In this document: positions 12,436-44,310 of the stretch, in pieces
How positions within the stretch are numbered: position 1 is the stretch's first letter
Layout of the letters: every line of letters begins with the position of its first letter
Origin: Algiphilus aromaticivorans DG1253
Lineage (GTDB): Bacteria; Pseudomonadota; Gammaproteobacteria; Nevskiales; Nevskiaceae
Assembly (NCBI RefSeq): GCF_000733765.1
Contig: NZ_JPOG01000001.1
Span: 3,358,501-3,422,500, forward strand
Length of the DNA: 64,000 nt
Direction of reading: 5' to 3'
Translations under genes and position numbers: made by a program
The notes under the pieces: model-generated
What the model was told of the DNA's origin: nothing
Seen by the model: the letters and a program-made list of their open reading frames with translations, nothing else
Database searches by the model: none

Positions 12436-13139
12436 AGATTCGCAACCCCGACATCCGTTCGCTGCTGGCAGCCGAGTACGCGCTGGGCACCTTGCAGGGG
12501 CGCGCGCGCCGGCGCTTCGAAAGCCTCGCCACTGCCGATCCGGAGCTACAGCGCGAGGCTGATCGCTGGGAGGCGCATCTGCACGCCGTGATGACCCGCC
12601 AGCTCGATCCGGTGACGCCGCCCGAGGCGCTGCGCGAGCGCATCATGCAACGCATCGGTGCCGATGCTGGCGCCAGTATTAGCGTGCGGCAACCGCGCCG
12701 CGCCTACCGCCGCCGGCGCGTCTGGGCCGCCGCCTCGGTGGCCGCGACCCTGGCCGTGGTGGCCTTGCTGCTGCCGGAAAGCCTCGAACAGCCGGAAGGC
12801 CCGCAGATCGTCCAGCCCGAGCTGCAACCCTTGATGCAGCTGGAAGTCGCCGAGGCCGGTGCGCAGTGGACGGTCGGCCTGCGCGGTGACGCGCCGGTCA
12901 TCGCCGCTTCGGCGGACGGCGTGACGCCGCCCGAAGGCGCCGACTACGAGCTGTGGTGGGTGGACCCGGAGGGCACGCCGCATTCACTGGGCGTGCTGCC
13001 GCGCCGGGGCGAGCGCCCCGTCAGCGTGCCCGAGGCCGGCGCCGGCCTCGACAGCGGTGCGTTGGCCATCTCGCGCGAGCCCGAGGGCGGCGCGCCCGAG
13101 GGTACGCCGAGCGAAGTGCTGAAGGTCTTCCCGCTCTGA
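12432..13139 (+). CDS. Anti-sigma factor, RskA-like
   Basis: Single-pass membrane regulator that would hold the adjacent ECF sigma factor inactive. The cytoplasmic N-terminus (about residues 1-95) contains the AEYALGTLQGRARRRFE pattern of RskA/anti-sigma-K proteins. A transmembrane helix lies at about 98-114. The C-terminal domain (about 125-235) has the WTVGLRGDAPV and YELWWVDPEG blocks of the RskA C-terminal family. No zinc-binding HXXXCXXC motif is present. Starting at 12432 it overlaps the sigma stop (ATGA). The three-hairpin repeat element follows its stop codon by five bases. Confidence 0.88.
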   Translation: MKIRNPDIRSLLAAEYALGTLQGRARRRFESLATADPELQREADRWEAHLHAVMTRQLDPVTPPEALRERIMQRIGADAGASISVRQPRRAYRRRRVWAAASVAATLAVVALLLPESLEQPEGPQIVQPELQPLMQLEVAEAGAQWTVGLRGDAPVIAASADGVTPPEGADYELWWVDPEGTPHSLGVLPRRGERPVSVPEAGAGLDSGALAISREPEGGAPEGTPSEVLKVFPL

Positions 13140-13144
13140 CGTGA

Positions 13145-13230
13145 GCGTCGCCGCGGGCGACGCCGCTTCCCCTCACCCGCGCAGCGGGAGAGGGGGGAAC
13201 CGTCCGCGGATGCGGACGGTGGGGAGCGGG
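13145..13230 (+). repeat. Three-hairpin intergenic repeat, copy 1
   Basis: Three consecutive inverted repeats follow the anti-sigma stop codon. Hairpin 1 (13145-13163) is GCGTCGCC with loop GCG. Hairpin 2 (13169-13195) is CCCCTC-A-CCCGC with loop GCA and one A-A mismatch. Hairpin 3 (13199-13220) is ACCGTCCGC with loop GGAT, a perfect 9-bp stem. A GGGGAGCGGG tail follows. A second copy of the same design is at 44098-44183. There is no T-run, so it is not a textbook intrinsic terminator, but the position just 3' of a gene fits an mRNA 3'-end or REP-like element. Confidence 0.85.
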
Positions 13231-13345
13231 TGTACCGGCAGCGGAATCCATGCTGCGAGTGCGCCGCACCCGGAACGGCTGCCAGCCGCGCACGAGGGCG
13301 GTCGCCTGCGCTAGCATCGTCCGGAACCGGGGAGATGCCAACACC

Positions 13346-44097: not shown

Positions 44098-44183
44098 CGT
44101 TGCCGAAGGCGACGCTTGCGCCCCTCGCCCGCGCAAGCGGGAGAGGGGAGGACCACCCGCGGCAGCGGGTGGTGGGGAGAGGG
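44098..44183 (+). repeat. Three-hairpin intergenic repeat, copy 2
   Basis: Same design and spacing as the copy at 13145. Hairpin 1 (44098-44114) is CGTTGCC with loop GAA and one T-G pair. Hairpin 2 (44121-44148) is CCCCTC-G-CCCGC with loop GCAA. Hairpin 3 (44152-44173) is ACCACCCGC with loop GGCA, a perfect 9-bp stem. A GGGGAGAGGG tail follows. Relative to copy 1, stem 3 has two changed base pairs with both sides changed. It lies directly after the transglutaminase-like gene, again 3' of a plus-strand gene. Confidence 0.85.
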
Positions 44184-44310
44184 CGGTTGCGTGTGTCGGT
44201 TTTTGTCCTGACGGCTGCGCGCGTCTTAGCCGTTAAACCACTGCTGGAAGGGGCGCGGCCCGGCCGGCATCATGCGCGGAAATGGGCAGGCTCAGGGCAC
44301 CGGAGCATTC

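Follow-up and report, generated by a model that had tools for sequence, protein, structure and literature searches.

Of the palindromic repeats that lie in frame within protein-coding genes, those of Rickettsia and Wolbachia are the most familiar. They have been described in Rickettsia and, as REPs, in other bacteria (PMC3733652, PMC2229807, PMC5896051), with intragenic REPs occurring in ORFs of free-living bacteria including Xanthomonas (PMC3733652). As that report describes them, GTAG REPs often supply a stop codon, and CGTC REPs, in which A-T pairs come first in the stem, have no known transposase (PMC3733652). A further structured repeat, the triplex motif TM_ECO, consists of CCCTCNCCC N3-6 GGGNGAGGG N3 GGGNGAGGG and has 3610 occurrences over 262 proteobacterial genomes (Holder et al., 2015, PMC4666352). 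According to the same report, this motif forms a triplex in vitro, stable triplex formation in vivo not being supported there; it had no promoter or terminator activity in the earlier work referred to; and in E. coli MG1655 it is always intergenic and linked with genomic variability (PMC4666352).

Here we describe a three-hairpin repeat that occurs twice in a 64,000-nucleotide stretch of Algiphilus aromaticivorans DG1253 (hereafter the window; contig NZ_JPOG01000001.1, positions 3,358,501 to 3,422,500), and which is probably a member of a dispersed, non-autonomous, once-mobile palindromic repeat family whose hairpins were kept after insertion. The parts of the two window copies are as follows (hp1 to hp3, hairpins 1 to 3).

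13137..13144, plus strand: left junction of copy 1, the TGA that ends the upstream ORF, followed by CGTGA (from the sequence)
13145..13163, plus strand: hp1 of copy 1, GCGTCGCC GCG GGCGACGC (from the fold)
13169..13195, plus strand: hp2 of copy 1, whose arms are the pyrimidine strand and the purine strand in the core of the triplex motif (from fold and conservation)
13199..13220, plus strand: hp3 of copy 1, a variable stem within the triplex motif's second loop (from fold and covariation)
13221..13231, plus strand: tail of copy 1, GGGGAGCGGGT, the would-be third strand, its block having one A to C change
44098..44114, plus strand: hp1 of copy 2, CGTTGCC GAA GGCGACG, with a single T-G pair (from the fold)
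44121..44148, plus strand: hp2 of copy 2 (from fold and pattern search)
44152..44173, plus strand: hp3 of copy 2 (from sequence and fold)
44174..44184, plus strand: tail of copy 2, GGGGAGAGGGC, which matches the consensus third strand

A preliminary description of this DNA had reported two three-hairpin copies at these positions, and all three hairpins are present in the minimum-free-energy fold of each (z = -3.03 for copy 1 and -3.38 for copy 2; equally good folds in 1/200 and 0/200 shuffles, respectively). Its reading of stem 3 (the arms, two double changes, and the loops GGAT and GGCA) and of the T-G pair that copy 2 has in stem 1 is borne out by the sequence of both copies, as is their location 3' of plus-strand genes, each copy starting 5-6 bases past the stop codon. 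Absent from that description was an 11-base tail after hp3, which is nearly invariant (consensus GGGGWGAGGGC). The left junction of copy 1 is similar to the left ends TGACATGA and TTAACGTGAA of several other copies. When up to three mismatches were allowed, a 28-base pattern for hp2 matched only copy 2 in the window (shuffle mean 0.00, n = 100), copy 1 being missed because its loop is one base shorter. The Rfam scan of the window returned nothing above gathering score for the element. An intrinsic terminator was ruled out, as the hairpins of both window copies have no U-tract after them.

The triple design had earlier been left unplaced. Its core can now be placed as the published TM_ECO intrastrand triplex motif (PMC4666352): the three 9-base blocks CCCTCNCCC, GGGNGAGGG and GGGNGAGGG follow one another in order, exactly in copy 2 and with one third-block change in copy 1, and the block columns are near-invariant in an alignment of 103 copies that were partly preselected by pattern. 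Blocks and block order are thus common to the element and TM_ECO/PIT, both of which are GC-rich and dispersed in proteobacteria. The second loop sets them apart, being N3 in TM_ECO, whereas in the element it is a 26-28-base stretch bearing hp3; hp1 is a further addition, upstream. Because the published TM finder allowed loops of 1-6 bases, it would not report this form. The element, unlike TM_ECO in E. coli MG1655, also occurs in frame within genes. Judged from its sequence, the element may itself fold as a triplex. Simple TM copies, with TTA before GGGGAGAGGG, were found at four sites of the same genome. Six further sites there (L001-L006, L008) have a simple hairpin with two arms, CCCCTCTCCC...GGGAGAGGGG, and lack hp3; at four of them TTAGGGGAGAGGG follows.

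When the genome was searched with a covariance model (R1), the check that the preliminary description had proposed, there were 27 matches at E <= 1. Seven of these keep the design (E from 3.7e-17 to 1.4e-7), the four best of the seven being the copies from which the model was built. As few candidates were scored per genome, the rates of the wider model searches are lower bounds: model R1 had matches at E <= 0.01 in at least 18 of 41 genomes, own genome included, which by rank are 17 of 25 in the same family and 1 of 16 in other families of the order; and a model built from 103 copies (R2) had matches at E <= 1e-5 in at least two of 369 genomes drawn from the class, one of them again the own genome, and matches in at least 6 of 119 genomes of the family of G204. 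Other genomes were also reached by searching a genome-contig collection with an exact pattern (3' arm of hp2, hp3 and tail), which occurred at 77 places in 74 stretches. Record titles make 59 of the 74 members of Nevskiales or Lysobacterales, 27 being titled Nevskia, Nevskiales/Nevskiaceae, Solimonas, Hydrocarboniphaga, Stagnimonas, Panacagrimonas, Sinimarinibacterium or Algiphilus, and 32 Luteimonas, Lysobacter, Dokdonella, Rhodanobacter, Rhodanobacteraceae, Lysobacteraceae or Lysobacterales; we take the genera so named to belong to these two orders. A further 13 are titled just Proteobacteria or Gammaproteobacteria, and two Verrucomicrobia, from a single assembly. The element is therefore found mainly in two related bacterial orders, Nevskiales and Lysobacterales. 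The two Verrucomicrobia-labelled contigs that bear it (L139, L153) point to mis-binning or transfer. A looser hp3 pattern with two mismatches was uninformative (59+60 matches versus 42+61 for the control). Queried with copy 1, plasmids gave a single 27-base partial match and phages none, and no viral contig held the exact pattern.

An alignment of 103 copies (102 distinct), fitted to the covariance model, shows pairing in 97.2% of 2668 cells. Changes on both sides of a pair fill 346 cells, against a mean of 87.8 in 500 shuffles that do not preserve the relatedness of the copies (0/500 as high) and 21 to 50 in a control with the partner slid. They fall in 16 of 27 pairs, namely 7/7 in helix 1, 6/9 in helix 3 and 3/11 in helix 2; in helix 3, 98.9% of cells are paired. 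A structure-free test of hp3, anchor-based and run on 85 copies after removal of duplicates and of the near-identical copies of genome G015, agrees: the arms, of which 28 distinct left ones were seen, are 94.9% Watson-Crick, compared with 64% when redealt (maximum 70% in 2000 deals). Stems of 5 or more bp were present in the hp1 region of 70/84 copies, compared with 64/247 control segments and 280/1680 shuffles. The sequence of hp2, in turn, is conserved across the 103 copies. Invariance of the tail is partly built in, since 77 copies were chosen by a pattern that fixes it; among the 28 copies found by model, 21 match GGGGWGAGGG and seven are off at one position. The earlier proposal that structure is maintained rather than sequence therefore holds for hp1 and most of hp3, where pairing is conserved, and fails for the core, where it is the sequence of hp2 and the tail that is conserved. 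A switch in which the 5' C-rich arm would pair with the tail was also considered and dropped, the variable columns giving it no supporting covariation.

G-T pairs outnumber A-C mismatches by 26 to 6 in helix 3 and by 68 to 4 in helix 2 (50 of the 68 at one pair), and by 22 to 16 in helix 1, or 10 to 8 with the outermost pair excluded; the rows behind these counts come from related genomes and are not independent. The excess in helices 2 and 3 suggests that the G-rich strand is the folding strand.

That covariation implies selection for structure, as had been argued from the two window copies, does not follow on its own, because template switching at imperfect palindromes can alter both arms together without selection. 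Taken to its end, this would make the fold unselected, with quasi-palindrome template switching in replication changing the arms and the elements lying in the genome as inert debris. The mechanism is a known mutational one at just such sequences, and the rarity of mismatches, the many arm types and the existence of tandem copies are all consistent with it. We nevertheless consider this account quite unlikely: it explains neither why an unpaired tail is near-invariant in copies chosen without the pattern nor why orthologous sites keep the design complete (see below), and a DNA process that is neutral as to strand would not be expected to produce the surplus of G-T pairs in helix 3.

Retention at orthologous sites was observed in two settings. 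Just beyond the SRP RNA gene (RF00169), A. aromaticivorans and a second genome of its genus, G001, carry an orthologous copy that differs by a single double change in each of hp1 and hp3, the sequence beyond having diverged; in an Rfam scan of six element loci, SRP RNA was the only family above gathering score, adjoining the element in two of them. In mpl, the element occupies one common site in five records with 78-88% DNA identity, a level like that of its flanks. The differences here in hp1 and hp3 are paired changes, apart from one mismatch in L188, and the 21-residue peptide that the insert encodes is constant in all five, so that the protein may be selected in addition to the fold. Orthologous copies with compensatory changes, as in these two cases, make selection for structure more plausible, if unproven.

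Other sites record the arrival of the element. Genome G001 has the same two genes that neighbour copy 1 and no element between them. Its upstream ORF ends FPLES-stop, two codons later than the FPL-stop of the window, where the TGA stands at the left end of the element; for copy 2, no convincing orthologue was seen in that genome. In hrpA the element is in frame in genome G014 and absent from all eight aligned orthologues, and no target duplication could be defined at this site. In dapE, 30 extra residues lie between the positions that align to residues 125 and 126 in 1VGY, a protein of solved structure. In a RidA-like gene it forms the C-terminal tail in four records from the exact-pattern search, and none of 28 readable orthologues (30 fetched) from another genome set has a three-hairpin tail. 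These empty sites establish that the element inserted. Two side observations concern the same genes: upstream of the element in hrpA of G014 (L123, L213) there are two simple hairpins of the triplex-motif kind, likewise in frame and also absent from the eight orthologues, and two of the RidA-like orthologues that lack the three-hairpin tail (L272, L282) have at its site what seems to be a simple hairpin of this kind, as if the gene end were a target hit repeatedly.

The hrpA and dapE cases belong to a larger set. The preliminary description had presented an intergenic element at the 3' side of genes, which is true of both window copies and too narrow for the family, as in 19 of 39 scanned ORFs an in-frame copy lies in the interior of the gene, and both orientations occur. 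Of 270 listed frames passing through an element, 40 were picked by hand and 39 scanned against Pfam (L179 was left out), ten of them also against NCBIfam; because the simple gene caller gave spurious long ORFs on both strands, only cases supported by homology were counted. The 19 represent 13 families, and in each ORF the element falls either within a domain or in the space between domains of a single protein: comF, carbon-nitrogen hydrolase, nirB, hrpA, CoA-transferase, prlC/oligopeptidase A (two ORFs), mpl (five), hemF, pcm, glnE, dapE, AFG1/zapE (two) and relA/spoT. The gene names comF, hemF, zapE and prlC are given as what we take to be equivalents of the family names. For L134, L164, L205 and L210, all among the 19, the better stretch of the match was seen and its partner across the element is presumed. 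Seventeen of the 19 come from the 77 genome-contig places, and the element is read forward in six and in reverse in 13. Five more ORFs have it as a C-terminal tail, namely the four RidA-like ones and an OB-fold protein of the own genome (L131), and in four (nuoG, glnD, ftsW and a second hemF) it stands at or near the N-terminus, where the start codon is uncertain. Pfam left 11 ORFs unplaced (L133, L142, L149, L150, L155, L169, L170, L183, L185, L186, L207), one of which, L155, has an NCBIfam match in two stretches. Enzymes with in-frame copies are predicted to carry an extra loop encoded by the repeat. The structure model of Mpl, made from five sequences, is poor (mean pLDDT 61.7) and renders the insert as its least confident coil, which is weak evidence at most. 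Selection for open frames within the element was considered as well and is unsupported, since its reading frames are no more open than those of shuffles (4.78 versus 4.64 open frames).

The two orientations also bear on whether the element works as RNA. It could have been domesticated to stabilise the 3' ends of mRNAs and SRP RNA or to signal their processing, selection then acting on its RNA hairpins; the two copies of the window, like a number of others, start at or just after stop codons, the SRP RNA-adjacent copy is orthologous with compensatory changes in two genomes, and the preponderance of G-T over A-C in helices 2 and 3 fits folding of the G-rich strand. Copies in coding regions, on the other hand, show no favoured sense strand, the hairpins of the window copies lack a U-tract, and the asymmetry of helix 1 is small, in counts taken from related genomes. 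On balance we regard an RNA function as the origin of the pattern as unlikely.

Given its size, its location at gene ends and its intragenic copies, which are REP-like features (PMC3733652), the element might instead be a REP, of a family with a GTAG or CGTC tag that RAYT transposases mobilise, and the three family genomes richest in it do have Y1 (PF01797) matches (six in G004, two in G014, four in G015). This we judge very improbable. By eye, hp2 opens with C-G (or T-G) and not with the A-T pairs of CGTC REPs, and the consensus contains no GTAG or other such tag. Among 25 genomes of the family, Y1/RAYT matches occur in 10 of the 17 with the element versus 7 of the 8 without it, giving no positive association: PF01797 is absent from the own genome and from G001, G003 and G022, the last with 16 element matches, and is present in G011, which has none. 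Nor was any mobilising enzyme found for the element, a point of likeness to CGTC REPs, which are described as having no known transposase; GTAG and CGTC REPs resemble it further in lying within ORFs (PMC3733652). As they are described, however, REPs are single-hairpin units with a terminal tag, whereas the element has several hairpins, a conserved unpaired tail and no tag that we recognised.

Other families come close in different respects. Palindromic elements of Rickettsia (RPE) and the protein-coding palindromes of Wolbachia are of similar size and likewise occur both in frame and between genes, and the presence of the element in frame in conserved protein genes (19 of 39 ORFs, 13 families) is a trait of the Rickettsia type; RPE belong to a different lineage, and the likeness is one of published description (PMC2229807, PMC3733652). 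Coxiella QMITE and enterobacterial RU/ERIC are small structured repeats also found fused in frame to ORFs, mostly with reported terminal inverted and/or direct repeats (PMC5896051, PMC2229807), whereas none were defined for the element, inspection by eye recognising no terminal inverted repeat.

Returning to a once-mobile repeat family as our preferred reading, we envisage an element of ~85-110 bp with a core of pyrimidine strand, purine strand and purine third strand, in which the variable hp3 occupies the loop ahead of the third strand and a second variable hairpin, hp1, lies upstream. It would have spread by insertion in a REP/MITE-like manner, landing beside start and stop codons, past the SRP RNA gene and in frame within genes, after which paired changes would keep the hairpins and sequence conservation the core. 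We infer that it was mobile, presumably through a trans-acting enzyme acting on the folded single strand, and that keeping the fold would benefit host or element. A more specific version, which we offer tentatively and think doubtful as a whole, is a mobile DNA structure independent of a REP-type transposase: a triplex core, its third strand presented by a variable hairpin, would be recognised as folded single-stranded DNA and insert in housekeeping genes of two orders, adding ~30 residues, to be kept afterwards as fold and peptide (mpl) or beside SRP RNA.

We found no description of the three-hairpin form, or of TM-cored elements within genes, in the literature searched (mostly open-access, without bioRxiv preprints). 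The element is a structured repeat unlike the Rickettsia and Wolbachia palindromes in make, in frame in core enzymes of free-living bacteria. The genes affected serve cell wall, lysine, haem and nitrogen metabolism and the stringent response. Several hosts are named cultured strains, which makes gain, mobility and effect of the element directly testable. It also connects the unexplained TM_ECO motif with insertion, and the natural covariation within the family can inform on the strand, and on the parts of the motif, that are important.

Finally, some copies have additional structure around them. Two or three copies stand in tandem at L161, L178, L147, L138 and L139, spaced ~87-123 bases apart, and several copies in G014 seem, by eye, to have a further hairpin after the tail. 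In G015 (L097-L116) the element lies within a longer unit with a period of ~144 bp (TTAACGTG...), tandem in places; this unit is found at many contig ends, where the draft assembly therefore seems to be broken.
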